64,000 bases of DNA from an uncultured Bacteroidia bacterium (lineage in GTDB: Bacteria > Bacteroidota > Bacteroidia > Bacteroidales > UBA932). Positions 9,906-47,018 of this stretch are shown here, piece after piece. The notes beneath the pieces are model-generated. The model saw nothing but the letters and a program-made list of their open reading frames with translations, did no database searches and was not told the origin of the DNA. The stretch lies in contig CADASN010000004.1 in assembly GCA_902790635.1 (NCBI GenBank), positions 87,428 to 151,427 on the forward strand, given 5' to 3'. The translations under genes were made by a program, and so were the position numbers. The number at the start of each line of letters is the position of its first letter. Positions within the stretch are counted from its first letter, which is position 1.

Positions 9906-10115
9906 ATGTCCGATTGCGTTGGGCTGGACGACAGCTCGCCCCTGCAAACGTCTCGCTGCGCTCGACCCCACCGCTGCGCTTGCTGTACCCCACAAATCTG
10001 AGATTTGCGGGGGCCCCACACCTCGCTTGCGGTCCCCCCTCTTACTTACGATGCCGAGGGTGGCACGGTTTGCTGGGGCGACTGCCGCTCCAGCCTTGTC
10101 ACCGCAATCGGACAT
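9906..10115 (-). repeat. hairpin repeat copy A, inside trmB
   Basis: A 210-base segment with perfect 13-base inverted ends ATGTCCGATTGCG, inside imperfect complementary arms of about 45-50 bases. The core (about 9946-10072) matches copies B and C, including GTCTCGCTGCGCTCGACCCC and the small palindrome CAAATCTGAGATTTG. It interrupts trmB between the DLYGMSD and VQTFYEQ segments. Confidence 0.85.
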
Positions 10116-10536
10116 GCCATAAAGATCAGATGTACAGGCAAGGATCTGCAAGTTATTGCAGCGGCAGACAGCGAGGGCGTATTCGTGCAGGAAGCGGGAG
10201 TCGGTCTTAAGGTGGACGATGCCGCCTGGCCGCAGGAAGCTGCGGTAGCGCTCCAGGAAAAGCGGCGAGCACAGGCGGGAATTCTCGCTGCGGTACTGCG
10301 GATCCGAGAAAGTCAACCAGACCTCGGACACCTCGCCGGGAGCAAAAAACGCCGTGATGAACTCCACCCGCGTCCGCAGGAACGCCACGTTCGGCAGGCG
10401 GTGCTCCGTCGCATACTTCGCTCCCTTCCACAACCGCGCCCCCTTGATATCCACGCCGATATAATTCTGATCCGGATTCCGCTCCGCCAGCGCGATCGTG
10501 TACTCCCCCTTGCCGCATCCCAACTCCAAGATTAAC

Positions 10537-10686
10537 TTCTTTTCCTGCTTGCAGTTCGGCAGCTCCCCCCTGAAAACGTCTCGCTGCGCTCGACCCCACC
10601 GCTGCGCTTGCTGTACCCCACAAATCTGAGATTTGCGGGGGCCCCACACCTCGCTTGCGGTCCCCCCTCTTACGATCGGAAAAGAA
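10537..10686 (-). repeat. hairpin repeat copy B, inside trmB
   Basis: The core (10574-10677) is nearly identical to copy A over about 100 bases but lacks the GATGCCGAGGGTGGCACGG extension on one side. Its inverted ends are TTCTTTTCC / GGAAAAGAA, unlike those of copy A. It interrupts trmB between WNDFFSD and KKLILELGCG. Confidence 0.85.
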
Positions 10687-10807
10687 ATCGTTCCAGCGGC
10701 CTTTGACGGCGTGATCGCGGAGGTGAAAATAACCGTCGGCGAGGAGTTCCTGCGCAGAGGGCTGCAGGAGACAGGAGAACGTCTCGTTCTCCGCGAACTT
10801 GCGTAAC

Positions 10808-11236
10808 TTATCGTGTCCCATCCTGTTTCTTATACACTACACCAATCCCCAGGAGATCCTCCCCCACGTCCACCGGCCGCACACTCAGCTGCCAGTCCCC
10901 GGCTTCCGCAGGCACCATCCCGCTCCGGTAGCGCTCCCGGGTCCCACGGGTATCCACAGAGCGCATATAGACCGTCTCCGAGAAGCCGTTGCCGGACGGG
11001 GCCAGCCACTGCACGTTTAACTGGACGTTGCTGATCGGCGTCTTTCCGACCCGGCTGTAAAACCAGAAATCATACCGCGCCGTCGTATCCGTAAGCGGTA
11101 GGGAAAAGACATAGACCCCGTCGCGGGCATCCTTCCGGAAGATAAAGGTCTCCATCCCGTCCGGCTCCGAACAGGCAGGCAGCAGGCATCCCAGGACGCA
11201 TGCCACTAGCAAGGCTCCCAGAATCCGGAATTTCAT
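10808..11236 (-). CDS. gldH: GldH-like lipoprotein
   Basis: 142 residues. The signal peptide MKFRILGALLVACVLGCLLPAC ends in the lipobox LPAC, so an envelope lipoprotein is predicted. Size, the FWFYSRVGKTPISNVQLNVQ core and position directly after ricT match the GldH family, first described in gliding motility of Flavobacterium but also present in non-gliding Bacteroidales. No other gld genes are in the window, so its role here is unknown. The start follows the ricT stop with no gap, and its end overlaps the trmB start by 14 bases. Confidence 0.75.
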   Translation of the reverse strand: MKFRILGALLVACVLGCLLPACSEPDGMETFIFRKDARDGVYVFSLPLTDTTARYDFWFYSRVGKTPISNVQLNVQWLAPSGNGFSETVYMRSVDTRGTRERYRSGMVPAEAGDWQLSVRPVDVGEDLLGIGVVYKKQDGTR

Positions 11237-12535
11237 CTACTCGGCGGGATTCTTCGGCTTCGGGCCCTGGCCGCGTCCGCCGCCGGGCCGGTGAGCGCGT
11301 CCGCGCTTGCCACCGTTGCCGCCGGATCCGGCATTGCCACCGTTCCCGCCATTGCCGCCATTGCCGCTATTACCGCCGTTGCCGCCGCCACTGGCCTCCC
11401 GGCTCTTCGCGCGATTCTTCCCGCCCCGGGACTTTTTGCGCTTCGGCGCATCGAAACGGCTGATGCTGTCGTCCCCGACCGCCGTCACGAACTCGGGCAC
11501 ATACGGCTCCGGCTCCGTGCGCAGCGACTCGGGGCGCTCGCCCCGGCGGTTCATCTCGATGATGTCCCACACCTCGGCGGCATCCAGCGGGAAGAGTTCC
11601 GCATCGGAGGTCTTGTCATAGGAGAAATACATCACCTCGCGGAGGATGTCCGTCTTGCGCAGCCAGGCCTGGCCGTCCTCGAACTCCAGCGGCTCCGTGA
11701 CCCTGGGAATCCGCGACTGGGCGTCCAGGTAGGTGGCGACCTCGTAGTTGAGGCAGCATTTGAGCTTGCCGCACTGGCCCGCCAGTTTCTGCGGGTTCAG
11801 CGACAGGTCCTGGCAGCGGGCAGCCGCCGTGGAAATGCTCTGGAAAGAGGAAATATAATTGGCGCAGCACAACTCGCGGCCGCAGATGCCCAGGCCTCCG
11901 ATGAGGCCGGCCTCCTGCCGCGCGCCGATCTGCTTCATCTCGATGCGGATGCGGAACTCTTCGGCAAACACCTTGATCAGCTGGCGGAAGTCCACGCGGC
12001 CGTCCGCGATGTAGTAGAAGATGGCCTTGCTGCCGTCGCCCTGGAACTCCACGTCGCCAATCTTCATCTCCAGGCCCATCTCCGCAGCGATGCGGCGGGC
12101 CTTGATCATCGTGTCCTGCTCCCGGGCAATGGCTTCCTGCCATTTCTCGATATCGCTCTGGCGGGCCTTGCGGTAGATCTTCCGGAGCTGGGTAGTCTCC
12201 GGATCGATCCCGCGGGCTTGCATCTGGCGCCCCACGATCGGCCCCTCGAGGGTCACGATGCCGAGGTCCTGCCCCGTCACGGCTTCCACCATCACCAGGT
12301 CGCCCTGGCGGATGCTCTGCGCAGAGTCATTGACATAAAAGCCCTTGCGGGTATTCTTGAACCGCACTTCGTAGAGATTGCGGTAGGTGCCGTCAGCGGC
12401 ATATTTGAGCCAATTGAAGTCTCCCAGCTTGCAGCAGCCGGCACGATAGGTACAGCGGGTCTCGCCCGACTCTTCCTCGTGCGTCACCACGCAGCCGCGG
12501 GAGCAATCATATTGGATGGTTTCGTTCGTTGTCAT
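11237..12535 (-). CDS. ricT: RicT/PSP1-domain protein
   Basis: 432 residues. The start MTTNETIQYDCSRGC is chosen because its ATG overlaps the holB stop as ATGA; a longer frame runs back through holB. The PSP1 domain carries the cysteine blocks CGRELCCANY and CGKLKCCLNYE. In Bacillus the homologue (YaaT/RicT) is part of an Fe-S complex affecting RNase Y; the role in Bacteroidota is less clear. The last 60 or so residues are basic, then low complexity with repeated GGN units (about 380-410), likely disordered and possibly RNA-binding. Next genes are holB upstream and gldH downstream. Confidence 0.88.
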   Translation of the reverse strand: MTTNETIQYDCSRGCVVTHEEESGETRCTYRAGCCKLGDFNWLKYAADGTYRNLYEVRFKNTRKGFYVNDSAQSIRQGDLVMVEAVTGQDLGIVTLEGPIVGRQMQARGIDPETTQLRKIYRKARQSDIEKWQEAIAREQDTMIKARRIAAEMGLEMKIGDVEFQGDGSKAIFYYIADGRVDFRQLIKVFAEEFRIRIEMKQIGARQEAGLIGGLGICGRELCCANYISSFQSISTAAARCQDLSLNPQKLAGQCGKLKCCLNYEVATYLDAQSRIPRVTEPLEFEDGQAWLRKTDILREVMYFSYDKTSDAELFPLDAAEVWDIIEMNRRGERPESLRTEPEPYVPEFVTAVGDDSISRFDAPKRKKSRGGKNRAKSREASGGGNGGNSGNGGNGGNGGNAGSGGNGGKRGRAHRPGGGRGQGPKPKNPAE

Positions 12536-13515
12536 ATCAATAAAAACAAGCGGTCGGTCATGTCGGCGAAGAGGATCTTCAGGTTGACATTGCGTCCGAT
12601 CAGGGTCACGGCCCGGTCCAGCACCTCCAGGGCCTGGCGCGGGAAGGTTTTGCGGCATTTGCCGGCCCAGCGCTCCACCTCCGGGGCGCAGGTCCCGAGG
12701 CCCTGCACGCCCTGCTGGCAGAGGAACATCTGCCGCAGCCGGTCTGCTGCAAAGATACAAAAAGCTTTGGCACATTCACGCGATGGCAGGGAAGCGATCC
12801 GCTCGGACACCTCCAGCGCCCCCAGCAGGTCCTTTCCCAGCAGTGCCGTCATCAGCTCGTCCAGCAGGCCCGCTTCCGCAAAACCCGCTTCCGCAGCCTG
12901 CCCCGCGGGCTGGATGCGGATCCGCTGGCAACGGGACGAGATCGTCACCAGCACTTTCTCCACCTGGTGCGAGATCAGCAGGAACTGCGTCTGCTGCGGC
13001 GGCTCCTCGATCATCTTGAGCAGGCGGTTGGCCGCCTCGGCGTTCATCCGCTCCGGCAGATAGATCACCACCGCCCGGTATCCACCTTCCAGCGCACTCA
13101 GGGACAGTTTCTCCAACAGGCGGCGGGACTCCGCGACCGCGATCATCGGGATCTTGCCTTCGAGGCCCAGCGCCTCCAGCAGTTCCGCTTCGCTGAAAGA
13201 CGGGTGCTCCGCCACCAGCCGCCGCAGCGGCTCCATATATTGCTCCGACAGGACGCCGGATGCCGTCGGAAAGACGAAATGCACATCCGGATGGATGAGC
13301 TTCGCGATCTTGCCGCAGGAAGGGCACTGTCCGCAGGAATCTCCGTCACTGCGATGCTTGCAGTAGAGGTATTGCAGGAAAGCCAGCACCAGGGGGAACG
13401 CCCCGCCGCCGTCATCCTCATGGAAAAGGATGGCATGCGGTACACGCCCGGCATCGACCATGCCGATGAGCGCCTGCTTGACTTCCTGGTTGCCCTGCAC
13501 CTGCGCGAACGTCAT
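12532..13515 (-). CDS. holB: DNA polymerase III delta' subunit-like protein
   Basis: 327 residues from MTFAQVQGNQEVKQALIGM; this ATG overlaps the upstream stop as ATGA. It belongs to the clamp-loader AAA+ family: the zinc module CGQCPSCGKI, the VIYLPERMNAEAANRLLKMI segment with EEPP, and SSRCQRIRI. The P-loop is degenerate (HEDDGGGAF in place of GxxGxGK), as expected for delta', which does not hydrolyse ATP. It acts in the replicase clamp loader. Tightly coupled to the genes on both sides. Confidence 0.88.
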   Translation of the reverse strand: MTFAQVQGNQEVKQALIGMVDAGRVPHAILFHEDDGGGAFPLVLAFLQYLYCKHRSDGDSCGQCPSCGKIAKLIHPDVHFVFPTASGVLSEQYMEPLRRLVAEHPSFSEAELLEALGLEGKIPMIAVAESRRLLEKLSLSALEGGYRAVVIYLPERMNAEAANRLLKMIEEPPQQTQFLLISHQVEKVLVTISSRCQRIRIQPAGQAAEAGFAEAGLLDELMTALLGKDLLGALEVSERIASLPSRECAKAFCIFAADRLRQMFLCQQGVQGLGTCAPEVERWAGKCRKTFPRQALEVLDRAVTLIGRNVNLKILFADMTDRLFLLI

Positions 13516-14480
13516 ACTTCCCTCCACAGATTGTAACGGGCGATCTCCGTCAGGGATTCCTTCGCCGGACCGTCCGGGAAGGCTGCCAGCGCTTCCTCCG
13601 CCCGGGCGACCCAGACTTCCAGCCGCCGGATGGCGTAATCGATGCCCCGGCGCTCCTGCACGAACTGGCGGATCCCGTCGCAATACTCCGGGTGGGACGG
13701 GACCTCCCGGACCATCCGCCGGATCTCCGCTTCACGCGGAGAGTCCGCCAGGGCTCCCAGCAGCGGCAAGGTGATCTTCTGCTCACGCAGGTCCACCCCG
13801 ACCGGCTTCCCGAGAGCATCCGTGCCGGCATAGTCCAGGATGTCGTCCTTGATCTGGAACGCGATGCCGAAAGCATCGGCGAAAGCATGTGCTGCCGCGG
13901 ACTGCCCGGAAGAAGCTCCCACGGAGAGCGCCCCCGTCTCGGCCGCGGCGCAGAAAAGCGCTGCGGTCTTGCAATGGATAATGCGCAGGTAATCCGCCAC
14001 GGTCGTATCGCCGGAGGAAGCCTTCTCCATCTGGAGCATCTCGCCCTCGGCCAGTTCCGTCAAAGTCCTGGAATACAGGTGGATCGCCTCGCAACAATGC
14101 TCCGTTTGGACCACCAGGTCCACGGCGCGGGCCAGCCAGTAGTCACCCACCAGCACGGCTCCGGAGGGGCCCAGCAGGGCGGCGACAGTCGGACGCCCGC
14201 GCCGTTCCGTCCCTTTATCGGCCACATCGTCGTGCATCAGCGTGGCGTTATGGAACAACTCGGACGCGGCCGCGTAATGATGACTGTCCTCCGTCGGGGA
14301 AGCGATCGACTTGGCAACCAGCAGGGAGATCATCGGCCGGAGCAGCTTCCCGGTATTCGCCAGGATCCGGTCGTTAGTGTCCTGCAGCAGCGTGACATCC
14401 GAATGCAGGTGCGACCGGATCAGGGCCAAGGTCCGGTCCCAATCCGCTCCGAGATATGCCAGTATGTCCTGCCTGTTCAC
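13512..14480 (-). CDS. polyprenyl (octaprenyl/heptaprenyl-type) diphosphate synthase
   Basis: 322 residues. The gene starts with GTG, which overlaps the upstream stop as GTGA. The first aspartate-rich motif is LMHDDVADKGTERRG and the second KDDILDYAGT, the Mg-diphosphate sites of trans-prenyltransferases. It builds the long isoprenoid chain, probably for menaquinone, from FPP/GPP and isopentenyl diphosphate. Exact chain length cannot be read from sequence. Operon member between LOG and holB. Confidence 0.9.
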   Translation of the reverse strand: MNRQDILAYLGADWDRTLALIRSHLHSDVTLLQDTNDRILANTGKLLRPMISLLVAKSIASPTEDSHHYAAASELFHNATLMHDDVADKGTERRGRPTVAALLGPSGAVLVGDYWLARAVDLVVQTEHCCEAIHLYSRTLTELAEGEMLQMEKASSGDTTVADYLRIIHCKTAALFCAAAETGALSVGASSGQSAAAHAFADAFGIAFQIKDDILDYAGTDALGKPVGVDLREQKITLPLLGALADSPREAEIRRMVREVPSHPEYCDGIRQFVQERRGIDYAIRRLEVWVARAEEALAAFPDGPAKESLTEIARYNLWREV

Positions 14481-15007
14481 AAAAGACTGACTAATTCTTC
14501 GACCGTCTCCGGGAAATAAACCATAGCCCGGGAAGCCTCATCCATCATCCCCCGCTCCACGTAGAGATCCAACTGCGCCTTGAACGGATCGTAGAAACCG
14601 TTCATGTTGAAGATGACGACACGCCCGGCATATTTGCCGAGTTTGGCCAGGCAATAGGTCTCAGCCACTTCATCCAGGGTGCCGATCCCGCCCGGAAGGG
14701 CGATGGCCAGGCTGGTCCCCTCCCGCATCACATCTTTCCGCTCCGACATGCGGTCCGTCCAGATGCACTCCGTCAGGCGGGGGTGCTCAAATCCCTTCAT
14801 GAAGCGGGGGACCACGCCGATCACCCGCACACCATGCTGCAACGCTTCATCGCAGACGTGACCCATCGTGCCGCGCCACGAACCTCCCGAGACGATATCA
14901 TATCCTGCCAAACAGGCTGCGCGGACGATTCGCCGCGCAGCCTCGTTGTAGACAGGATCGATGCCGGAACTGGAGGAGCAATAGATTACTGCCCGCTTGT
15001 CCGACAT
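14477..15007 (-). CDS. LOG family protein (TIGR00730)
   Basis: 176 residues with a Rossmann fold and the diagnostic PGGIGTLDEVAE motif of cytokinin riboside 5'-monophosphate phosphoribohydrolases (LOG) and related nucleotide hydrolases. The usual first glycine motif (GGGxxGLMG) reads SGGSWRGTMG here, a modest deviation. The bacterial physiological substrate is generally unknown. It follows the beta-barrel gene after 6 bases and overlaps the prenyl synthase by 4. Confidence 0.85.
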   Translation of the reverse strand: MSDKRAVIYCSSSSGIDPVYNEAARRIVRAACLAGYDIVSGGSWRGTMGHVCDEALQHGVRVIGVVPRFMKGFEHPRLTECIWTDRMSERKDVMREGTSLAIALPGGIGTLDEVAETYCLAKLGKYAGRVVIFNMNGFYDPFKAQLDLYVERGMMDEASRAMVYFPETVEELVSLL

Positions 15008-15013
15008 AAGATA

Positions 15014-15640
15014 CTAGAAGAGAAGGACGACGGAAGCCATGATACCGGAGGCCTTCTGGGTGCGGACGGCGTCATAAGCCGTAGCAATGTTGGCATTGCT
15101 GGCGTTGCCGAGGTTCCAGAAGTAACGGACGGCCACCTGGACGTGCTCGATCAGTTCGACACCGGCGCCGAGGCCGACACCATACTCGAGCTTGTTCTTC
15201 ACTTCGCTCCACTTCACATCGATCTTGGTACCGCCGGTAGTCTGGGCCGTGTTGGTGATCTGGTAGCCGACAAACGGCTCCAGGATACCGTACGCACGGA
15301 CGATGCCCAGGTCGAGGCCGGCCTGCAGCTGGACAGGAACCTCGATGGAACCGGTCTTGTACTCAAAGTCACCGGCAGTGACGGCGCCTTCCGTAGCCTT
15401 GTTGATGATGTTCCCCACCTTGGAGCCCTTCACATTGTAGATGATGGCCGGCTGGATTTTGATCAGGCCGAGATCCATCTTGTAAGCGACACCCACGTGA
15501 TAGGAAGTGGCGTTCTTGACATCGGCATAAGCCTCTTTGAGATCAGCCTTGGAAGAGGTGATACCAGCCATGACACCCAGCTGGGCGTGCGCGCTCACTG
15601 CAACGAGCAGGGAAGCGACGATGACGATTAATTTTTTCAT
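15014..15640 (-). CDS. outer-membrane beta-barrel protein
   Basis: 208 residues. It has a clear signal peptide MKKLIVIVASLLVAVSAHAQ, alternating amphipathic strands, and a C-terminal phenylalanine typical of outer-membrane barrels. It resembles the PorT/OmpW-like 'porin family' small barrels of Bacteroidota; no function is known. It lies 23 bases after trxA and 6 before LOG, probably in one transcript. Confidence 0.75.
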   Translation of the reverse strand: MKKLIVIVASLLVAVSAHAQLGVMAGITSSKADLKEAYADVKNATSYHVGVAYKMDLGLIKIQPAIIYNVKGSKVGNIINKATEGAVTAGDFEYKTGSIEVPVQLQAGLDLGIVRAYGILEPFVGYQITNTAQTTGGTKIDVKWSEVKNKLEYGVGLGAGVELIEHVQVAVRYFWNLGNASNANIATAYDAVRTQKASGIMASVVLLF

Positions 15641-15663
15641 TTCGTGTTTTTTGGTTAAAAGGT

Positions 15664-15978
15664 TTACATCAGGTTCTCGAGCCGGGTGACGATCTCCTGC
15701 TTGGAGACCACGCCGACTGTGCGGTCCGCCAGCTCACCGCCCTTGAAGTAGAGCAGGGTCGGGATGTTGCGGATCCCGTATTTGACCGCAATCTCCTCGC
15801 AGTCATCTACGTTGCATTTGGCGACGACGGCCTTTCCGTCCAATTCGGCGGCCACTTCGTCCACGGTCGGGCTCAGGACGCGGCAGGGACCGCACCAGGT
15901 AGCCCAGAAGTCGATCAGAACAGGCACCGGCGATGCCAGGACCTCTCCGATATTGTTGTCGTTAATGACGATTTCCAT
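15664..15978 (-). CDS. trxA: thioredoxin
   Basis: 104 residues, the normal thioredoxin length, with the active site WCGPC in LIDFWATWCGPCRVL and the cis-Pro segment IRNIPTLLYF. A cytoplasmic disulfide reductase. The start MEIVINDNNIG is chosen over an upstream extension that would read through the promoter and into the previous gene. A textbook Bacteroidota promoter lies 46-75 bases upstream. Confidence 0.95.
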   Translation of the reverse strand: MEIVINDNNIGEVLASPVPVLIDFWATWCGPCRVLSPTVDEVAAELDGKAVVAKCNVDDCEEIAVKYGIRNIPTLLYFKGGELADRTVGVVSKQEIVTRLENLM

Positions 15979-16023
15979 AAAAAAAAGATGTGTTATTAAT
16001 CCGCACATTATGTGCAGCAACTG

Positions 16024-16053
16024 CAAAGATAGTAAATTAATAGAAAGTTTCAA
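16024..16053 (-). promoter_or_regulatory. promoter of trxA operon (TTG-N19-TATCTTTG)
   Basis: On the minus strand TTG (16053-16051) is followed after exactly 19 bases by TATCTTTG (16031-16024), a full match to the Bacteroidota -33/-7 pattern. It overlaps the 3' end of the PG0541-like gene. Confidence 0.85.
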
Positions 16054-16330
16054 CCCCCCACACGAAAGCGCGGAGTCCCAGGTCCGGCGCCTCCTTGTCT
16101 TTCGCCTTGAGCGCGGCGAGCAGCGGCTCCACCTTTTCATCCTTCATCATGACGAGCAGGGCATGGTTCATCTCAGGCCAGGCATGGCTGCCCAGGCGCG
16201 GGATGCCGTTGAAGTCTCCCTTGCCTTCGACATCCTCCCAGCGGGTGAATCCCCGCTGGCCGTGGGCGGCAAGCAACTCCACGATCTCTTCGTTGTAGGC
16301 CTGGTTGTAGGCTATGAACATCGCTTTCAT
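16037..16330 (-). CDS. PG0541-like, PII-superfamily transporter-associated protein
   Basis: 97 residues from MKAMFIAYNQAYNEEIVELL, with the ATG overlapping the RND pump stop as ATGA. Small proteins of this type follow RND permease genes in Bacteroidota and resemble nitrogen-PII-like signalling proteins; a role in controlling the pump is inferred from position only. Features include NHALLVMMKDEKVEPLLAAL, a PII-like strand-helix unit. Last gene of the efflux operon. Confidence 0.75.
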   Translation of the reverse strand: MKAMFIAYNQAYNEEIVELLAAHGQRGFTRWEDVEGKGDFNGIPRLGSHAWPEMNHALLVMMKDEKVEPLLAALKAKDKEAPDLGLRAFVWGVETFY

Positions 16331-21930: not shown

Positions 21931-21945
21931 AATAATAAACGCGCG

Positions 21946-34975: not shown

Positions 34976-35014
34976 TCTGGGAGAGCCCATAATAAGTTCC
35001 TTGTTACCAATCAA

Positions 35015-35260
35015 CTACTGCCAGGAGCTAATATCGGGCTGTTTTGCCCCTGGCGACACGTTTCCGCCGCCGGGGGCAAAATCAATTACCCCTGCCCCTG
35101 GCAAAAACAAATCAACATCTTCTCCGAGTTTAGAGTGGTACAGCAGAAGCGGAGTACCTCCGAATAGCAGGTAAGCGGCGTAAGATGATAAGGTCCTTAC
35201 CCACCGAGTTCCAAGGCGTAGAAGATCAAACGATTGACCATCAACCAACAGCAAAAACAC
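35015..35260 (-). pseudogene. possible remnant of an AbiEii-type nucleotidyltransferase
   Basis: An 81-residue open stretch contains YLLFGGTPLLLYHS followed by KLGEDVDLF. This matches the GGTxLxL...H..S.DvDLF core of the AbiEii/AbiGii toxin nucleotidyltransferase family. The sequence breaks off into a Gly/Pro-rich nonsense tail after DVDLFLPG. No partner antitoxin is present. Probably a decayed toxin-type gene. Confidence 0.4.
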
Positions 35261-35427
35261 GGGTACTATTTTCGAATACCCGTGTTTTCATTTATTATTG
35301 AAAATCAGCGAATTTGTATGCCACGCCATACAACGGAGTTGAGGGGAAGGGGTGGCGTAGTGATTCAAACTACTAACTATCAATCAATAACAAAAACACG
35401 GGTACTATTTTCGAGTACCCGTGTTTT
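35254..35427. repeat. 139-bp tandem duplication carrying two terminator-like hairpins
   Basis: AAAACACGGGTA...TACCCGTGTTTT occurs at 35254-35288 and again at 35393-35427 with almost the same loop (CTATTTTCGA). Flanks also agree in part (CATTTAT, TATGCCAC/CATACCAC). Each hairpin is A-rich before and T-rich after the stem, as in a bidirectional terminator. Confidence 0.75.
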
Positions 35428-35562
35428 CATTTATCGTTAGTGATCACCGGATTCGCATACCACGGCACAAAGTAATATTATGAGGAAAGATTTGGAGCGC
35501 AGCGACCGAGGAGGTGCGGGGGATTCTTCCCCGGATCATAAAGCCCGGTACGGCCCGGTCAA

Positions 35563-35802
35563 TCAAGGCACCGGATCATAACCCGATCCGCCCCAGGGGT
35601 GGCAGCGAAGGATGCGCTTCAGGCTGAGCCAGAAGCCTTTGAACGGTCCGTATTTGCGGAAGGCCTCGAGGGCGTACTGCGAACAGGTGGGCGTAAAGCG
35701 GCAGCTCGGCGGTTTGAGCGGCGAGATGCAGAGCTGATAGAACTTGATCAGCAGGATGAAGGGCGCGGAGAGCACCCGTTTGCAGACCTCGACGAAACTC
35801 AT
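35563..35802 (-). CDS. yidD: membrane protein insertion efficiency factor YidD
   Basis: 79 residues. A small amphipathic inner-membrane protein assisting YidC-dependent insertion. It shows the full signature [20 protein letters not shown], then [12 protein letters not shown] and [17 protein letters not shown]. The start ATG overlaps the rnpA stop as ATGA. The conserved pairing with rnpA supports both calls. Confidence 0.95.
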
Positions 35803-36968: not shown

Positions 36969-36983
36969 CTTGCTGCAAATTGA

Positions 36984-37691: not shown

Positions 37692-37698
37692 CCAACGA

Positions 37699-38046: not shown

Positions 38047-38063
38047 CGGTGGGATAATTTTTG

Positions 38064-38071
38064 CAAAGATA
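38064..38071 (-). promoter_or_regulatory. -7 box of the SUI1-hemD-rnpA operon
   Basis: TATCTTTG on the minus strand, 18 bases before the ATG at 38046, back to back with the DUF2723 promoter. Confidence 0.6.
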
Positions 38072-38085
38072 AGGATTTTTAATTG

Positions 38086-38093
38086 TACCTTTG
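38086..38093 (+). promoter_or_regulatory. -7 box of the DUF2723 gene
   Basis: TACCTTTG, ending 7 bases before the ATG at 38100. A TTG at 38061-38063 is 22 bases upstream. Near-leaderless transcript. Confidence 0.65.
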
Positions 38094-38099
38094 TGGGTT

Positions 38100-41000
38100 A
38101 TGGACAGTAAGAAATTTACCCTGTGGAACAGAATCTGCGCAGCCCTGGCCTTCGTGGTCTCGACTGTCACCTATCTGTTGACCATCGAACCTTCCGCCTC
38201 CTTCTGGGATTGCGGCGAATTCATAGCATCTTCCTACAAACTCGAAGTCGGCCACCCGCCGGGAAACCCGGTCTTCCAGCTGTTCGCCCGCTTCTTCACG
38301 ATGTTCGGGGACAACATGCATGCGGCCATCCTCGTCAACGCGATGAGTGCCCTGTGCTCCGGCCTGACGATCCTGTTCCTGTACCTGACGGTCGTCTGGC
38401 TGGCGAAGCGCCTGGTCCGCCCCGATGCGGCGGGCGGCTATAGCACGGCGAAAGCCGTCGCCATCTTCGGCTCCGGACTTGTCGGGGCGCTGGTGTATGC
38501 CTTCTCGGACACCTTCTGGTTCTCCGCCGTCGAGGGCGAAGTCTATGCCATGTCCTCCCTGTTCACGGCCGCGGTCTTCTGGCTGATGACGCTCTGGTAT
38601 GACCGCGCCGACGAACCGCACGCCCTGCGCTGGGTGGTGCTGATCGCCTTCCTGATGGGTCTGAGCATCGGTGTGCACCTGCTCAACCTGCTGGCGATCC
38701 CGGCCATGTTCTTCATGTACTACTACCGCAAGCGCGAAGACAAGCCCTTCACCTTCTGGGAGTTGGTCAAGATCATGCTGGGAAGCATCGTGGTCCTGGG
38801 CCTGCTGGTCTTCCTGTTCGTCCCGTACCTGCCGAAGATCGCCGCCTACTGTGACCTCTTCTTCGTCAACGTGCTCGGCCTGCCGTACAACAGCGGCGCC
38901 GCCTTCTTCCTGCTCGCGCTGCTCGCCCTGCTGTTCTGGGGGCTGTTCCGCACGCTCAAGAACGAGAAAGTCTTCCTCAACACGGTACTGCTCTGCACGA
39001 CCACGATCGTGATCGGTTTCTCCGTGTTCAGCATCGATATCATCCGCTCCTGCGCCAAGACGCCGACCAACGAATACCAGCCGGACAACGCCTTCACCCT
39101 CGTCCGCTACCTTTCCCGCGAGCAGTACGGCTCCACGCCGCTCATCTACGGACAGTACTACGGTGCACCCTACGAACTGAAGACGACGACCTACTGGGCG
39201 CCGCTGGACGGCAAATACAAGAAAGTCGAAGGCCCGATCGACGCCAGCTACAAGCCTTCCGGCAAAATGCTCTTCCCGCGCATGTGGAGCACCAGCACCG
39301 ACGGAAGCTACGAGCACTTCTACGAGACCTACACGGACGGCAAGGGCCGCCGCGTCCCCGGAGCCAGCGCCCGCAAGCCGACGATGGGAGCCAACCTCTA
39401 CTATTTCTTCGACTACCAGCTGAACTGGATGTACTGGCGCTATTTCATGTGGAATTTCGTCGGGCGCCAGAACCAGATCCACGCCCCCAACCCGGGGGAT
39501 ATCTTCCACGGCAACTGGGAGAGCGGCGTCAAGTTCATCGACGACCTGCGGCTCGGCGACCAGTCCGACGCCCCGTCCACGCTCGCGGACGACAAAGGCA
39601 AGAACCACTACTTCTTCCTGCCGCTGCTGCTCGGCCTGCTGGGCCTCTTCTTCCAGTTCGACCGGGACAAGCGGGGCTGCTGGCTGACCTTCCTGATGTT
39701 CTTCATGACGGGCATCGCGATCGTCATCTACCTCAACCAGCCGCCTTACCAGGTCCGGGAGCGGGACTACGCCTACGCCGGTTCGTTCTACTTCTTCAGC
39801 GCCTGGGCCGGCCTGGCCGTCGCAGCGCTCTTCACCTGGATCGATGACGCCCGCAAGGGCCGCGGCGGCCTGTTGACCGCCGGCGTGCTGACGGGCCTGT
39901 GCCTGCTGGTGCCGGTCCAGATGGCAGCCCAGAACTGGGACGACCACGACCGCTCCAACCGCCGCACGGCCGTGGAGATGGCGCGCAACTACCTCAATTC
40001 CGTCGGCAAGGACGGCATCCTGATCACCCACGGCGACAACGATACCTTCCCGCTCTGGTACGCCCAGGAGGTGGAAAATGTCCGGACCGACGTGCGCATC
40101 TGCAACACCTCGCTGCTGGGCACCGACTGGCACATTGACCAGATGAAATGGGCGGTCAACGAATCCGCACCCCTGCCGCTGAGCGTGGGTCCCGACCAGT
40201 ATCTCTACGGCACCAACGAGTGGATCCCGATTTATGACACGCAGGAGCGCGAGATGACCATCCAGGACGTGATGGCCGTCTTCAAGCACCCCCAGATCAA
40301 GGCCCCGATGACCAGCGGGCGCAAGGTGGACTACATCCCCTCGCGCAAGATCGTCGTCCCCGTGAACCGGGAGAATGTCATCAAGTACGGCATCCTGGAC
40401 GCCAAGTATGCCGCCCAGATTCCCGACTCGATCGTGCTGACCATCTCCAAGGACAAGGAGTATCTCAGCAAGCCCGAACTCTTCATGCTGGACCTGCTGT
40501 CCGGCTACCAGTGGGACCGTCCGCTGCACCTGCTCAATATGGGCGGCGACATCAACATCGGCATCAAGGAGTATTTCGAGTATTGCGGCTATTCCTTCAA
40601 GTTCGTCCCGATCAAGAACAAGACCACCAGTACCGAGGCCGGCTTTGTCGATACCGACGAGCTCTACCACCTGCTCACGCAGGCCTACAGCTGGGATGCC
40701 GTGGCCCGGGATGACTATTTCATCGACTACCAGAACGAATACACACACCTCGGTGTGATGTCCATCCGGAGCCTGTTCGTCACCTGCGCCGACGCCTTCA
40801 TGCGCGCGGGCGAGAACGACCGGGCCCTCGAGATGGTGGACAAGTGCTGCGAGGTGATGCAGCACTACCCGCTGGAGACGGTCCCGCTCGGCTTCTCCGG
40901 CAACGACTATATGATCGTCACCCTCGTCGAGGACTACTACAAGCTCGGCCAGCCCGACAAAGCCCGGCAGCTGGCCACCCGGCTGGGCTCGGACCTGCTC

Positions 41001-41186
41001 GTCAGCGCCAAATTTTACATCGAGTTCTACGACTGGGCCCGCGACGAGTTCGAACTGGTCGGCCAGTACATCTACTTCCTCGCCGACGTGATGAAGCAGG
41101 GCGGCGACGCCGAACTGGCGAAGAAACTGACGGACGGTCTCGTGGCCCTGGTGGACCAGGCGTCCGAAACCGTGGATGCATCCTAA
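38100..41186 (+). CDS. DUF2723 membrane protein (putative O-mannosyltransferase-like)
   Basis: 1028 residues. The family hallmark is at the N-terminus: TYLLTIEPSASFWDCGEFIA followed by SSYKLEVGHPPGNP. About 12 membrane helices follow in the first 600 residues, and a large soluble C-terminal part (about 640-1028). The acidic CGEF region resembles the catalytic loop of GT-C glycosyltransferases, and some members have been linked to O-glycosylation of exported proteins in Bacteroidota. The start ATG at 38100 is preferred over a TTG at 38091 that lies in the -7 box. Confidence 0.88.
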   Translation: MDSKKFTLWNRICAALAFVVSTVTYLLTIEPSASFWDCGEFIASSYKLEVGHPPGNPVFQLFARFFTMFGDNMHAAILVNAMSALCSGLTILFLYLTVVWLAKRLVRPDAAGGYSTAKAVAIFGSGLVGALVYAFSDTFWFSAVEGEVYAMSSLFTAAVFWLMTLWYDRADEPHALRWVVLIAFLMGLSIGVHLLNLLAIPAMFFMYYYRKREDKPFTFWELVKIMLGSIVVLGLLVFLFVPYLPKIAAYCDLFFVNVLGLPYNSGAAFFLLALLALLFWGLFRTLKNEKVFLNTVLLCTTTIVIGFSVFSIDIIRSCAKTPTNEYQPDNAFTLVRYLSREQYGSTPLIYGQYYGAPYELKTTTYWAPLDGKYKKVEGPIDASYKPSGKMLFPRMWSTSTDGSYEHFYETYTDGKGRRVPGASARKPTMGANLYYFFDYQLNWMYWRYFMWNFVGRQNQIHAPNPGDIFHGNWESGVKFIDDLRLGDQSDAPSTLADDKGKNHYFFLPLLLGLLGLFFQFDRDKRGCWLTFLMFFMTGIAIVIYLNQPPYQVRERDYAYAGSFYFFSAWAGLAVAALFTWIDDARKGRGGLLTAGVLTGLCLLVPVQMAAQNWDDHDRSNRRTAVEMARNYLNSVGKDGILITHGDNDTFPLWYAQEVENVRTDVRICNTSLLGTDWHIDQMKWAVNESAPLPLSVGPDQYLYGTNEWIPIYDTQEREMTIQDVMAVFKHPQIKAPMTSGRKVDYIPSRKIVVPVNRENVIKYGILDAKYAAQIPDSIVLTISKDKEYLSKPELFMLDLLSGYQWDRPLHLLNMGGDINIGIKEYFEYCGYSFKFVPIKNKTTSTEAGFVDTDELYHLLTQAYSWDAVARDDYFIDYQNEYTHLGVMSIRSLFVTCADAFMRAGENDRALEMVDKCCEVMQHYPLETVPLGFSGNDYMIVTLVEDYYKLGQPDKARQLATRLGSDLLVSAKFYIEFYDWARDEFELVGQYIYFLADVMKQGGDAELAKKLTDGLVALVDQASETVDAS

Positions 41187-41196
41187 ACGACAAGGT

Positions 41197-42096
41197 ATGG
41201 CGGAATTCCCTTCTCCCGACTGGAAAGACTACGAACTGATCGACAGCGGCGAGGGCGAAAAGCTGGAGCGCTTCGGCAGCTACATCCTGGCCCGCCCCGA
41301 GCCCAAGGCCCTCTGGGGCAAGTCCCTGCCTGCGGCGGAATGGCGCCGGCTCGCGCACACGACCTTCACCCCCGGAGCCGGATTCGGCAAGGCCGGCAAG
41401 GAAGACAGCGGCACCTGGAACCGGCTCAAGCGCATGGACGACCAGTGGTATATCGGCTATCGCAATGCGGAAGGGCTTTCGCTCGACTTGCGCCTCGGCT
41501 TGACCTCATTCAAACACGTCGGCGTCTTCCCGGAGCAGGCCCCCAACTGGGACTGGATCTGGCGCCAGACGCGTGCGCTTGCGGCGAAAGGCCGCACCCC
41601 GCGCGTGCTCAACCTCTTCGCCTACACCGGCGCAGCCTCCCTTGCGGCGAAAGCCGCCGGGGCCGACGTGACCCATCTGGACTCCGTCCGCCAGGTAGTC
41701 ACCTGGGCCCGCGGCAACATGGAGCGCAGCGGGCTCGACGGCATCCGCTGGGTGGTCGAGGACGCGATGAAATTTGCCCGTCGCGAAGCGAAACGGGGCA
41801 ATGTCTATGACGGCATCATCCTCGATCCGCCCGCCTACGGACACGGTCCGGACGGAGAGAAATGGAAACTGGACGAGTGCCTGTTCGAGATGCTCCGGAC
41901 GGTCGGGGAGATCCTGGCCCCGCAGGACGCATTCCTGGTGCTCAATCTCTACTCCAACGGCTATTCCGCCCTCCTGGGCGAGACGGTGGTTCGCCAGGCC
42001 ATGCGCACCGGCAGCCTCGAGAGCGGGGAACTCGCCCTCGGGGACCGCTTCGGCAAGGCGCTCCCGCTGTCCATCGTCGTCCGGATGACCCGGTAG
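41197..42096 (+). CDS. class I SAM-dependent methyltransferase (RlmI/RlmK-like)
   Basis: 299 residues from MAEFPSPDWKDYELIDSGEG. The SAM-binding motif is VLNLFAYTGAASLAAKAAGA and the catalytic-type motif ILDPPAYGHG (DPPxYG), as in 23S rRNA m5C/m7G methyltransferases of the RlmI/K group. An N-terminal PUA-like part is not obvious. Exact target unknown. It starts 10 bases after the DUF2723 gene and is probably co-transcribed. Confidence 0.82.
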   Translation: MAEFPSPDWKDYELIDSGEGEKLERFGSYILARPEPKALWGKSLPAAEWRRLAHTTFTPGAGFGKAGKEDSGTWNRLKRMDDQWYIGYRNAEGLSLDLRLGLTSFKHVGVFPEQAPNWDWIWRQTRALAAKGRTPRVLNLFAYTGAASLAAKAAGADVTHLDSVRQVVTWARGNMERSGLDGIRWVVEDAMKFARREAKRGNVYDGIILDPPAYGHGPDGEKWKLDECLFEMLRTVGEILAPQDAFLVLNLYSNGYSALLGETVVRQAMRTGSLESGELALGDRFGKALPLSIVVRMTR

Positions 42097-42132
42097 TACA
42101 CCGCCTTCGGCATCCGGCGCGCCGCAAAAGCC

Positions 42133-42162
42133 TTGGGAATGACAAAAAAATGGTTATATTTG
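42133..42162 (+). promoter_or_regulatory. promoter of tkt (TTG-N19-TATATTTG)
   Basis: TTG at 42133-42135 and TATATTTG at 42155-42162 with a 19-base spacer; a leader of about 40 bases follows before the tkt ATG. Confidence 0.85.
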
Positions 42163-42205
42163 TAAGCTATGGAATTTTCCGAATTAACTAACTAATACTA
42201 CCAAT

Positions 42206-44227
42206 ATGGCAAATCCTCACAGTGTACTCAAACACGCGGCAGACAACATCCGTATCCTGGCTGCCGCTTCCGTCGAAAAGGCCAAGTCCGGACACCCGGG
42301 CGGCGCCATGGGCGGAGCCGATTTCATCAACGTCCTTTATTCCGAGTATCTCAAATACGACCCCAAGGATGCTGCCTGGGCCGGTCGTGACCGCTTCTTC
42401 CTCGATCCGGGACACATGGCTCCGATGCTCTACAGCCAGCTCTGCCTCGCCGGCAAGTTCACCCTCGAAGAGCTCGCCAACCTCCGCCAGTGGGACGCCC
42501 CTACCACCGGACACCCCGAGCTGAACGTCGAGCGCGGCATCGAGAACACCTCCGGTCCGCTCGGACAGGGACATGTCCTCGCCATCGGTGCTGCCATCGC
42601 CGCCAAGTTCCTGGCCGCCCACACCGGCAACCCGACCTTCTCCCGCGAGACCATCTACGCCTACATCTCCGACGGCGGCATCGAGGAGGAGATCAGCCAG
42701 GGCGGTGCCCGCATCGCTTCCGTGCTCGGTCTGGACAACCTCATCGTCTTCTACGACTCCAACGACATCCAGCTCTCTTCCACGACTGACGTGGTGATGA
42801 ACGAAGACACGGCTGCCAAGTACCGTGCCCTCGGCTGGGAGGTCTTCGAGATCAACGGCCATGACATCGACCAGATCCGCAAGGCCATCGAAGCTGCCCA
42901 GAAGGTCCAGGGCAAGCCTTCCATGATCATCGGCAAGTGCATTATGGGCAAGGGCGCCCTCAAGGAGGACGGCAGCTCCTACGAGAACAACTGCAAGACC
43001 CACGGCGCCCCGCTCGGCGGCGGTGCTTTCGTCAATACGGTCAAGAACCTCGGCGGCGATCCCGAGAATCCTTTCGCCATCTTCGACGACGTCAAGGAGC
43101 TCTACGCCAAGCGCGCCAAGGAACTCGAGGCCATCGCGGCAGAGCGCAAGGCCGAGGAGAAAGCCTGGGCTGACGCCAATCCCGAGAAGGCCGCCCAGCT
43201 CGCTGACTGGTTCAGCGGCAAGGCCCCGAAGATCGACTGGAGCAAGGTCGTCCAGAAGGACAACGACTCCACCCGTTCCGCTTCCGCAGCCTGCCTGTCC
43301 GTCCTCGCGGAGCAGGTGCCCAACATGATCTGCGCTTCCGCAGACCTGTCCAACTCCGACAAGACCGACGGATTCCTCAAAAAGACCACCGCCTTCAAGG
43401 CCGGTGACTTCTCCGGCGCCTTCTTCCAGGCCGGTGTCGCCGAGCTCACGATGGCCTGCTGCTGCATGGGTATGGCCCTGCACGGCGGCGTCATCCCTGC
43501 CTGCGGTACCTTCTTCGTCTTCTCCGACTACATGAAGCCGGCCGTCCGCATGGCCGCCCTGATGGAGATTCCCGTCAAGTTCATCTGGACCCACGACGCC
43601 TTCCGTGTGGGTGAGGACGGTCCTACCCATGAGCCTGTCGAGCAGGAGGCCCAGATCCGCCTGCTGGAGAAGCTCAAGAACCACCACGGCCGCAACTCCG
43701 TGCTGGTCCTGCGTCCCGCCGATGCCAAGGAGACGACCGAAGCCTGGGCGATCGCCATGGCCAACACCGCCACCCCGACGGCCCTGATCTTCTCCCGCCA
43801 GAACATCGCCAACCTCCCCGAGGGCAACGACTACAGCCAGGTCGCCAAGGGCGGTTACATCGTTGCCGGTTCCGATCCGGATCCCGATGTCATCCTCGTG
43901 GCTTCCGGCTCCGAAGTCTCCACCCTGGAGGCCGGTGCCAAGCTCCTTCGCGCCGACGGCAAAAAGGTCCGCGTGGTCAGCGTCCCGTCCGAGGGCCTCT
44001 TCCGCCAGCAGTCCAAGGAGTACCAGCAGAGCGTCCTGCCCGCAGGTGTCAAGAAGTTCGGCATGACCGCCGGCCTGCCTGTCACCCTGCAGGGTCTCGT
44101 ACCTGAGTCCGAGGGCACCATCTGGGGCCTCGAGTCCTTCGGTTTCTCCGCTCCCTACAAGGTGCTTGACCAGAAGCTGGGCTACACCGCCGAGAACGTA
44201 TACGAGCAAGTGAACAAGCTCTTCTAG
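42206..44227 (+). CDS. tkt: transketolase
   Basis: 673 residues, full length. Moves two-carbon units between pentose-phosphate sugars with thiamine diphosphate. Seen are VEKAKSGHPGGAMGGADFI, the GPLGQGHVLAIGAA block, the ThDP/Mg motif written ISDGGIEEEISQGGARIAS (SDG where GDG is usual), FYDSNDIQLS, and in the second domain WTHDAFRVGEDGPTHEPVEQ. A good promoter precedes it; lepA follows after 7 bases and may share the transcript. Confidence 0.96.
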   Translation: MANPHSVLKHAADNIRILAAASVEKAKSGHPGGAMGGADFINVLYSEYLKYDPKDAAWAGRDRFFLDPGHMAPMLYSQLCLAGKFTLEELANLRQWDAPTTGHPELNVERGIENTSGPLGQGHVLAIGAAIAAKFLAAHTGNPTFSRETIYAYISDGGIEEEISQGGARIASVLGLDNLIVFYDSNDIQLSSTTDVVMNEDTAAKYRALGWEVFEINGHDIDQIRKAIEAAQKVQGKPSMIIGKCIMGKGALKEDGSSYENNCKTHGAPLGGGAFVNTVKNLGGDPENPFAIFDDVKELYAKRAKELEAIAAERKAEEKAWADANPEKAAQLADWFSGKAPKIDWSKVVQKDNDSTRSASAACLSVLAEQVPNMICASADLSNSDKTDGFLKKTTAFKAGDFSGAFFQAGVAELTMACCCMGMALHGGVIPACGTFFVFSDYMKPAVRMAALMEIPVKFIWTHDAFRVGEDGPTHEPVEQEAQIRLLEKLKNHHGRNSVLVLRPADAKETTEAWAIAMANTATPTALIFSRQNIANLPEGNDYSQVAKGGYIVAGSDPDPDVILVASGSEVSTLEAGAKLLRADGKKVRVVSVPSEGLFRQQSKEYQQSVLPAGVKKFGMTAGLPVTLQGLVPESEGTIWGLESFGFSAPYKVLDQKLGYTAENVYEQVNKLF

Positions 44228-44234
44228 ATTTTAG

Positions 44235-46025
44235 ATGAAACACATTCGGAACTTCTGCATCATCGCGCACATCGACCACGGCAAGAGCACGCTGGCAGAC
44301 CGCCTGCTGGAGTTGACCTCGACGCTGGGGGTGCGCGATATGGAGAACCAGGTCCTGGACGACATGGACCTGGAGAAGGAGAAAGGCATCACGATCAAGA
44401 GCCACGCCATCCAGATGGTCCACCAGTATCACGGGGAGGCCTACAAGCTCAACCTCATCGATACCCCGGGCCACGTGGATTTCTCCTATGAAGTTTCGAG
44501 AAGCATTGCATCCTGCGAAGGCGCCCTCCTCGTCGTGGACGCCTCGCAGGGCGTGCAAGCACAGACCATTTCCAACCTCTACATGGCCATCGACCATGGA
44601 CTGGAGATCATCCCGGTCCTCAACAAGATCGACATGGAATCCGCCCAGGTCGAAGTCGTCACCGACGAGATCTGCGACCTGCTGGGCTGCGATCCTTCGG
44701 ATGTCTTCAAGGTGTCCGCCCGTACGGGCGAAGGCGTGGCCCCCATCCTCGATGCCATCGTAGAGAAGATCCCCGCGCCGGAGGGCGACCCCCAGGGGCC
44801 GCTCCAGGCGCTCATCTTCGACTCCGTCTTCAATTCCTTCCGCGGGGTGATCGCCTATTTCAAGATCAAGAACGGCTCCATCCGCAAAGGCGACAAGGTC
44901 AAGTTCTTCGCCACCGGGATGGACTACGAGGTCGAAGAAGTGGGTATCCTCAAGATGAAGCTCATCCCCACGGCAGAGGTCGGCTGCGGGGATGTCGGTT
45001 ACGTGATCACCGGCATCAAGAGCGCCACGGAAGTCAAGGTGGGTGACACCATCACCCATGTGGCCCGGCCTTGCTCGCAGGCCATCGCCGGCTTCGAGGA
45101 GGTCAAGCCCATGGTTTTCGCGGGCATGTACCCGGTGCAGGCCGACAAGTTCGAGGAACTGCGCGCCGTACTGGAGAAGTTCCAGCTCAACGACGCCTCC
45201 TTCGTCTATGAGCCCGAAAGCTCGCTCGCGCTGGGTTCCGGCTTCCGCTGCGGCTTCCTGGGCCTGCTGCACCTCGAGATCGTGCAGGAGCGGCTTTTCC
45301 GCGAATTCGACATGGACGTGATCACCACCGTCCCGAACGTCTCGTACAAGGTCTATACGACGCAGGGCGAGGTGGTGGACGTGCACAACCCCTCTGGGCT
45401 GCCGCCCCAGACGCTCATCGACCATATCGAGGAGCCGTACATCCGGGCGCAGATCATCTCCAAGTCGGACTTCTTCGGTCCCATCATGAAGCTTTGCCTG
45501 GACCGGCGCGGCACGCTCATCGGCCAGCACTACATCACGGCCGACCGCGTGGAGCTCACCTATGACATGCCCCTGTCCGAGATCGTCTTCGACTTCTACG
45601 ACAAGCTCAAGACCATCTCCAAGGGCTATGCCTCCTTCGACTACCACGTGACGGGATTCCGCCCGGCGCGGCTCGTCAAGCTCGACATCCTGCTGAACGG
45701 CGACCCGGCCGACGCCCTCTCCACCCTCATCCACGAGGACAATGCCTACACGTTCGGCCGCAAGATGTGCGAGAAGCTCAAGGACCTGATCCCCCGCCAG
45801 CAGTTCGACATTCCCATCCAGGCGGCCATCGGCGCCAAGATCATCGCCCGTGAGACGGTCCGGCAGGTGCGCAAGGACGTGACCGCCAAGTGCTATGGCG
45901 GCGACGTGACGCGCAAGCGCAAACTGCTCGAGAAGCAGAAGGAGGGCAAGAAGCGGATGCGCCAGATCGGTACCGTGCAGGTGCCCCAGAGCGCCTTCAT
46001 GGCCGTTCTGAAACTGGATTCCTAG
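44235..46025 (+). CDS. lepA: elongation factor 4
   Basis: 596 residues, full length. A ribosome-associated GTPase thought to act on stalled or mistranslocated ribosomes. G1 AHIDHGKST, the G2-like switch [15 protein letters not shown]3 [12 protein letters not shown]4 NKID. LepA-specific C-terminal domain ends [20 protein letters not shown]. Three bases separate it from the HprK-like gene. Confidence 0.97.
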
Positions 46026-46028
46026 ACT

Positions 46029-47018
46029 ATGGTCCGTCGTTTCCAGGTAGCGGGACTCGTCTTCTCGCTCGACCTTCCGGAGCATCATCCGGCGACCGCT
46101 CACCTGCACAACTACGATCCTTTTGAGATAATGTCGCGTCCCGGCAGTCAGCCTCCGGAAACGTCTCGCTGCGCTCGACCCCACCGATGCGCTTCGCTTG
46201 CGGTCCCCCCTCTTACGATGCCGAGGGTGGCACGGTTTCCAGAGACTGCTGCCGAGGCCGCTCCGATTTTCAATTTACTATTGACCAACGAGCGGCCGGG
46301 GACGCCGGATGCGACCCTGTTCCGCAGCGCGGAGGAATCCGGAGAGCCGGTCGTCGGTTTTTATCGCTGCGGTGAGGGCTACCTGGCGGAGTTTTCTCCC
46401 ATGCCCGGGAGGCCCGTGTGCGGGGTGCTGGAGATCAGCGGCGATTTCCGGGAGGGGAAGCTTTTTGCCGAAGGCAGTCCGTCCGACCAGGTCTTTGCCA
46501 TCAACAACTCCCTGATGCTGCTGTTCGCCTTCGCGTCGGCCGCCCGGCAGGCGCTGGAGATGCACGCCTCCGTGGTAATGCACGGCGGTCGCGGATTCCT
46601 CTTCCTGGGGCGCAGCGGCACTGGCAAGAGCACCCACAGTTCTCTGTGGATCAAGCACATCGAGGGCACCGAACTGCTCAACGACGACAACCCAGTCGTC
46701 CGGATCGTAGACGGCACCGTCCGGGTCTTCGGTACGCCCTGGAGCGGCAAGACCCCCTGCTACAAGGCCCAGGATGTCCCGGTCGGGGCCATCGTCCGGC
46801 TCCGCCAGGCACCGGAGAACAGCATCGCACGACTCGGCACCGTCCAGGCCTATGCCTCCGTAATGGCGTCCTGCTCCGGCTACCGCCCGATCCGCGCCCT
46901 CGCTGACGCCCAGCATGAGACGCTCTCCGTGATCGCCACTGATATCCCCTGCTATGAACTGGGCTGCCTGCCCGACGAAGCCGCGGCCAGACTCTGCTGG
47001 CAGACTGTCGATGGATAA
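46029..47018 (+). CDS. HPr-kinase-like P-loop protein of a peptide-maturation cassette, carrying a repeat insert
   Basis: 329 residues. The kinase core has a Walker A GRSGTGKSTHSSLW (about 196), LLNDDNPVVRI, and the GTPWSGKT loop, the pattern of HPr kinase/PEP-carboxykinase-like proteins found beside PqqD genes. HASVVMHGGRGFLFLG leads into the P-loop. The N-terminus (FQVAGLVFSLDLPEHHP, NYDPFEIM) is interrupted at about residues 38-76 by the translated copy C of the hairpin repeat (SRCARPHRCASLAVPPLTMP), in frame. It may phosphorylate a peptide or protein substrate; none is visible nearby. Stop overlaps the peptidase start. Confidence 0.7.
   Translation: MVRRFQVAGLVFSLDLPEHHPATAHLHNYDPFEIMSRPGSQPPETSRCARPHRCASLAVPPLTMPRVARFPETAAEAAPIFNLLLTNERPGTPDATLFRSAEESGEPVVGFYRCGEGYLAEFSPMPGRPVCGVLEISGDFREGKLFAEGSPSDQVFAINNSLMLLFAFASAARQALEMHASVVMHGGRGFLFLGRSGTGKSTHSSLWIKHIEGTELLNDDNPVVRIVDGTVRVFGTPWSGKTPCYKAQDVPVGAIVRLRQAPENSIARLGTVQAYASVMASCSGYRPIRALADAQHETLSVIATDIPCYELGCLPDEAAARLCWQTVDG
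46141..46257 (+). repeat. hairpin repeat copy C, in frame inside the HprK-like gene
   Basis: The core 46157-46240 shares ACGTCTCGCTGCGCTCGACC and CGCTTGCGGTCCCCCCTCTT, then GATGCCGAGGGTGGCACGG, with copy A. It lacks about 36 central bases around the CAAATCTGAGATTTG palindrome. Arms GGAAACG / CGGTTTCC and CGGCAG / CTGCCG are complementary. Its orientation is opposite, relative to the host gene, to that of the trmB copies. Confidence 0.8.

Follow-up and report, generated by a model that had tools for sequence, protein, structure and literature searches.

The best-known examples of palindromic inserts that lie in frame within protein-coding genes come from Rickettsia and Wolbachia. Rickettsia palindromic elements (RPEs) are long hairpin repeats with inverted ends, located in intergenic DNA and also, in frame, within conserved genes. 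In the available text of PMC2229807 and PMC10969869, they measure 105-146 bp, inserts are reported in 19 reading frames and nearly half of the copies lie in open reading frames (ORFs); the same portion of PMC10969869 has them encoding a conserved peptide. Bacterial miniature inverted-repeat transposable elements (MITEs) such as ERIC, Correia and YPAL are described in the available part of PMC2229807 as short and non-autonomous, with terminal inverted repeats and sometimes with in-frame ORF fusions. Template switching, according to the portion of PMC8604942 available, homogenises the arms of inverted repeats and is able to extend them; it also inverts spacers that lie in coding DNA. Here, a family of hairpin repeats from a different phylum is described, starting from three copies in 64,000 nt of DNA from an uncultured bacterium of the Bacteroidales (assembly GCA_902790635.1, contig CADASN010000004.1, positions 87,428 to 151,427). 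This whole stretch is referred to as the window.

The elements are a dispersed family of about 95-220 nt each, and a variant of the protein-coding palindromic repeats that is set apart by a predicted pseudoknot core, copy-specific arms and core inversion, with the RPEs being compared by description. An initial interpretation of the window from its letters alone (the sequence-only reading) had named the RPE as the closest parallel. This holds for hairpin repeats inside genes, the likeness being one of function. Unlike RPEs, the elements have a Bacteroidales host, a covarying core and arms that vary by copy; the core occurs in both orientations and in several reading frames at one site, the size range is wider than the about 100-150 bp of RPEs, and the conserved encoded peptide is lacking, since frames and strands differ at the trmB site. 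The elements resemble MITEs in being short, non-autonomous, bounded by terminal inverted repeats and sometimes in frame within ORFs. They differ in that no single terminal-repeat sequence is common to the whole family, though subfamilies of single genomes share arms, and neither a target-site duplication (trmB site) nor a cognate transposase (30 RAYT loci) was found. Quasipalindromes, as described in the available parts of PMC8604942 and PMC8794818, have arms that are homogenised and lengthened and spacers that invert within coding DNA, and the elements show the same signs; inversion is seen between homologous arms at one site in each of two locus pairs (L161/L233 and L207/L260). Quasipalindromes are, however, isolated and short with spacers of a few bases, whereas these elements are multicopy with a structured core of 44-151 nt. 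A structured, RNA-like core is held in common with Rfam families, none of which matched at its gathering score.

We lean towards explaining the family as spreading hairpins with a pseudoknot core, inserted in frame in genes, whose arms are kept matched by template switching. Copies have spread within genomes, as near-identical copies at different places show, and those in genes would persist where they lie in frame within tolerant loops. The frames of such copies are open, and translation would give inserts of about 35-70 residues. The arms would act as an inverted repeat, in which replication copies one arm from the other and maintains their match; this copying may also lengthen the arms into flanking host DNA and sometimes invert the core. 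The template-switching step is suggested by mirrored arm changes, by core inversions at orthologous sites and by the published mechanism. The core may be conserved as a fold needed for spread, or through homogenisation of copies. A bolder and less likely version has the pseudoknotted core, as RNA or single-stranded DNA, spreading by its fold instead of its terminal sequence and replication rebuilding the arms from the DNA in which it lands, giving self-correcting, invertible hairpins that add in-frame loops to housekeeping enzymes throughout the genus.

In the minus-strand direction of the window, an H-type pseudoknot comes first in the core. Hairpin P3 is next, in some copies with more hairpins after it, and then hairpin P4 (for example GTCGC-GAA-GCGAC); the arms, P1, enclose the whole core. 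Stem S1 of the pseudoknot (for example TGTGGCC/GGCCACA) has a CCCTC loop that pairs with a downstream GAGGG to form S2. In the family alignments, S2 was 99.5-100% paired (99.5% in 43 sequences). Two of the five S2 pairs had two-sided changes, one in 10 and the other in 7 sequences, and the variants were CCCTC/GAGGG, CCCGT/ACGGG, CCCAT/ATGGG, CCCAC/GTGGG and CCCGC/GCGGG. Two-sided changes were also present at five of the seven S1 pairs. The covariation score of 0.235 was reached by none of 500 shuffles and was 2.4 to 18 times the scores of slid controls (0.013-0.099). The core is thus predicted, with the support of covariation, to form an H-type pseudoknot and hairpins. Matched arms within copies, as claimed in the sequence-only reading, were present at 112 of 113 exact-core sites with room (stem score of at least 36), compared to none of 400 random positions drawn from the same loci, which is the unbiased measure of arm pairing. 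All 16 P1 pairs showed two-sided changes among 40 longer sequences chosen for arm pairing.

The three window copies were found where the sequence-only reading had placed them, and belong to a larger family than it had noted. Copy A (9906-10115) is assigned to the minus strand from the orientation of its pseudoknot. Its low-coordinate arm (9906-9949) has the outer end ATGTCCGATTGCG (9906-9918) and its high-coordinate arm (10068-10115) the outer end CGCAATCGGACAT (10103-10115). The 118-nt core between them (9950-10067, minus strand) comprises the P4 side, an extra CCCCGCAAATCT hairpin, P3 and the pseudoknot, with helix S2 at 10037-10060 (minus strand) assigned from the family alignments as CCCTC (10037-10041) pairing with GAGGG (10056-10060) in plus-strand reading. 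A 4-nt tandem duplication, TTACTTAC, is present at 10042-10049. Copy B (10537-10686, minus strand) has a truncated core without the GCCACCCTCGGC side of the pseudoknot and the outer arms TTCTTTTCC (10537-10545) and GGAAAAGAA (10678-10686). For copy C (46142-46254, minus strand), a 72-nt core (46163-46234) is enclosed by arms at 46142-46162 and 46235-46254 that pair with bulges. Copies A and B have 117 nt in common at 97% identity, and C matches A over 53 nt (85%) on one side of the C core and 43 nt (86%) on the other. Compared with shuffled sequences, the RNA folds of copy A (z = -7.0 on the minus and -6.3 on the plus strand) and copy C (z = -4.4 and -2.8) were stable, and that of copy B, folded on the plus strand alone, was weak (z = -1.1).

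All three copies were confirmed to lie within genes. A and B interrupt the trmB gene region (9668-10821, minus strand), where the reading frame shifts at both inserts, a change that the sequence-only reading had missed. The frame is lost in this genome, with the 4-base duplication in A and the truncated core in B, and is open in a relative. Copy C lies within a plus-strand ORF (46029-47018, 329 aa) whose frame is open through the element, which makes up residues 37-78 of the 330-residue open frame; this ORF had no Pfam match at 1e-3. The window had also been read as devoid of a transposase, and for the two transposase families searched, PF01797 and PF01609, the whole genome was without a match. 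The sole PF00078 match of the genome is on a different contig.

With the core as query, the 2.24 Mb draft genome yielded 23 matching pieces, and a covariance model built on 40 copies gave 22 matches. Across the genus, the model matched 71 of 81 sampled genomes (E ≤ 0.01, this genome counted), with a median of at least 7, a maximum of at least 43 and a total of at least 955 matches, these being lower bounds because up to 49 candidates were scored per genome. Across the order, 4 of 198 genomes matched at E ≤ 0.001, namely this one, one from another genus of the same family (G206) and two from other families (G108 and G258). An exact pattern was found in at least 118 stretches of named genomes. 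The 80 matches listed all came from Bacteroidales or Bacteroidia that were uncultured or assembled from metagenomes, and ruminant gut samples (goat, sheep, yak, water buffalo and deer) were named in many of the listed titles. Rumen Bacteroidales of this kind include Cryptobacteroides. Viral contigs gave no match to the same exact pattern, and copy A was unmatched in plasmid and phage collections searched in distant mode. No Rfam family reached its gathering score on the window element; in a permissive Rfam scan of three loci, the hairpin mir-1295 matched one copy at 23.4 bits, far below its cut-off of 100, and nothing credible was obtained. No description of the family was found in the titles and abstract openings of the open-licence papers that literature searches listed.

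Sixty pairs of copies with homologous flanks on both sides were compared, of which 39 had the same and 21 the opposite orientation. The pairs do not count as independent; in at least three (L001/L077, L077/L125 and L077/L213), trmB site A is compared with site B. As many copies share a site across several species, much of the insertion pattern is old. The sequence-only reading had held that recurrence of the same inserts at the same places would leave mobility unsupported; such sharing was common, yet dispersal is still real. In L161/L233 and L207/L260, the arms were homologous in genomic orientation and the core was inverted between them. Eight orthologous pairs could be compared in register, 11 pairs having been reduced to these eight because ungapped, out-of-register arms inflated the number of mirrored changes (57 mirrored vs 15 one-sided in the 11 pairs). 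Here, 22 arm positions had changed on both sides, by 11 transitions and 11 transversions. Among pairs in the same orientation, 23 had flanks of 75% identity or more; of their 460 inner positions, 222 were unchanged, 167 differed but paired in both copies, 49 paired in one and 22 in neither; this comparison was ungapped, and out-of-register arms inflate the differ-but-pair class. In L205/L207 (flanks 74.5% identical), 14 of 20 inner positions had changed yet were paired in both.

Retention of pairing at these orthologous sites, together with the pseudoknot covariation, would also be expected if each copy were a functional RNA structure, acting in mRNA stability, termination or regulation, that is held under selection at its site by compensatory arm substitution. 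We regard this as quite unlikely. An RNA acting within an mRNA should not tolerate the opposite orientation seen in 21 of the 60 pairs. Selection for pairing would pass mainly through G-U intermediates and therefore favour transitions, and half of the mirrored changes were transversions. In addition, the sites are empty in many relatives.

The trmB site corresponds to a variable loop between DLYG and EVQTFYE, and an element in an open frame was present there in 6 of 37 other G genomes readable at this position (G008, G015, G017, G019, G053 and G054). Five named loci, which had been located by way of their element, also carry it there in an open frame (L181, L213, L224, L239 and L259). In a tree of 36 of 43 TrmB rows, G000 being left out, the empty G003 was sister to the occupied L213 with support of 100/98, providing the empty orthologous site that the sequence-only reading had proposed to look for, and occupied genomes fell in three parts of the tree. 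The trmB gene of G005 has the outer arms but no core, and G049, an apparent empty site for G017, was treated as a remnant because one arm persists. G000, G015 and G017 share one orientation of the core, and the rest have the opposite one. Even for the same element strand, the reading frame of L213 differs from that of L181 and L239, and G015 and G017 use the opposite strand. An AlphaFold model of the insert-bearing TrmB of L213 had a mean predicted local distance difference test score (pLDDT) of 48.6, lowest in the insert region (about 25-30); confidence was low overall and the model was not relied on.

Other inserts also occupy the trmB loop, in G005, G006, G047 and G053. A second palindromic repeat family (GTCATTTCGAGCGAAG...GAGAAATC and CATTCTGAGCGGAG...GAAGAATC) seemingly lies in frame at the same gene loops, at trmB site A of G005 (L289), G053 (L288) and G006 (L142) and in ribF of L153. 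In L282 (G047), trmB site A has a long insert rich in Gly, Ala, Glu and Val that is unlike the hairpin family.

The origin of the arms was examined at this site and among recent copies. The sequence-only reading had suggested, as one possibility, that a mobile core acquires its arms from the target at insertion; one conceivable route is that a flank is copied by snap-back. Consistent with this, cores that are 97-100% identical at four places in G000 (L007, L008, L009 and L014) carry different matched arms, and the arms of L014 reach CAGTTTGACGCAA on both sides, within the host ORF. The outer left trmB arms also match the empty G003 site in register (L213, 11/17; L224, 10/17; G053, 10/15), and the right arms are without an in-register counterpart (best 7/13 for L213, 7/13 for L224 and 6/12 for G053). 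At this one site, an outer arm partly of host origin is suggested. These matches are modest, however, and the G019 arms had none in register. Moreover, 13 of 20 stretches examined in G016 formed one near-identical, recent subfamily with common arms, the other seven having different arms, and the three examined copies of G258 (L293, L297 and L301) also carry common arms, so arms can travel with the element and diverge afterwards. A weak arm consensus across 179 copies (C at -1, A at -3 and -4), with low information at most arm positions, likewise speaks against purely local arms. Arms made only at insertion are thus rather unlikely; template switching fits better because of the shared sites, the core inversions and the mirrored changes. 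The sequence-only reading was therefore supported in part: a hairpin family within genes, a fixed core, re-matched arms and real dispersal stood, and an exclusively local origin of the arms is not the favoured reading.

Amplification within G016 and G258, together with the empty sister site at trmB, shows real spread of the family. L293, L297 and L301 (G258, a different family of the order) have about 185-400 nt of homologous sequence in common, and a larger composite repeat may be amplified there.

REP and REPIN sequences are palindromic and multicopy, with copies flanking a RAYT gene. The hairpin family shares the first two properties and is statistically tied to RAYT presence, which raises the possibility that a RAYT-type Y1 transposase mobilises it in trans and that it is a large functional relative of REPIN. 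Among 41 genus genomes, the median was 15 copies with PF01797 (n=30) and 3 without (n=11; Mann-Whitney p = 0.005, uncorrected for relatedness and multiple testing). No link of copy number to RVT_1 (p = 0.46) or DDE_Tnp_1 (p = 0.66) was seen in the same genomes. Unlike REP and REPIN, the elements are far longer, often intragenic and not beside RAYT genes. None was found by the model in 30 RAYT loci, which were taken from a longer match list and extended to at most about 1.5 kb either side, and a fuzzy-motif match near RAYT in L120 was not an element. The genomes are incomplete drafts. The family also has 22 copies in this genome and 14 in G014, neither having a PF01797 match. Proximity to RAYT was rejected and the copy-number correlation retained as a lead; mobilisation by RAYT is unlikely.

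With regard to genes, 11 copies in this genome lay in 10 frames open straight through the element. For six of these frames (seven copies), Pfam matches flanked the element on either side or ran across it, the hosts being an RNase R-type RNB protein, a Radical_SAM_N protein, an HI0933-like protein, RibF, a TPR protein and an FAD-dependent protein (two copies); one-sided matches were to DsbD, QueH and an HHH_3 protein. Elsewhere, two-sided hosts were TruB, TruA, RsmH (MraW), TldD, RibF, a UPF0004 radical SAM protein, an ABC transporter and a GH9 protein, among others. Room of 600 nt to either side was available for 106 named copies, of which 56 had a spanning open frame, compared to 303 of 400 random positions, and genes are therefore somewhat avoided. 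A mostly intergenic placement, which the sequence-only reading had set against mobility inside genes, was not clearly indicated by these counts. A Pfam scan took in 31 of the 56 copies, leaving out 25 including L181. It found a match in the frame for 28 of the 31, and in 18 the element was flanked on both sides or spanned by matches; as the copies were chosen for open frames, these counts do not give the frequency of out-of-frame inserts. Counts from a codon-usage gene caller, which called 3 of 17 G000 copies and 309 of 600 random positions in frame, were not used because the caller was too insensitive. Based on the open frames and Pfam matches, between about one third and one half of the copies lie in frame inside genes.

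The hosts often resemble RNA-modification or processing enzymes (TrmB, TruA, TruB, RsmH, QueH, TsaD-family, UPF0004 radical SAM and RNase R). In the ribF genes of L086, L151, L153, L191 and L209, the element occupies the loop that separates the FAD synthetase domain from the riboflavin kinase domain, in both orientations and in differing reading frames.

Several observations weigh against the template-switching explanation. In the eight in-register pairs, 14 of 36 changed arm positions were one-sided, and these pairs were hand-picked from the 39 with the same orientation. For more diverged pairs such as L205/L207, a new insertion is indistinguishable from divergence. The cores of this family (44-151 nt) far exceed the few-base spacers inverted in the yeast template-switching study. 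S1 pairing was just 82.9%, the pair-type count was not above that of shuffles (321/500), and the P1 covariation is inflated because rows were selected for arm pairing. In the TrmB tree, some branches between the occupied groups were weakly supported. No transposition event was observed, no target-site duplication was visible at the one site compared, trmB against the empty G003 site, and no enzyme was found.

Three further features were recorded. A SAM-II riboswitch (Rfam RF01726, 59 bits) is present near element copies at L213:3755-3814. In the window, a 114-nt repeat occurs as two adjacent copies (79% identical) with inverted repeats inside at 35215-35467, and a 34-nt repeat occurs twice (97%) at 53106-53249, immediately ahead of a tRNA gene (53251-53324).

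In-frame palindromic inserts are thus also found in a phylum other than that of Rickettsia and Wolbachia, in a genus of gut bacteria that carries them in RNase R, RibF and several tRNA and rRNA modification enzymes. As there are hundreds of copies, many at orthologous sites, two open questions become testable: whether the arms of long hairpins are matched by selection or by template switching, and by which route mobile repeats add protein sequence.

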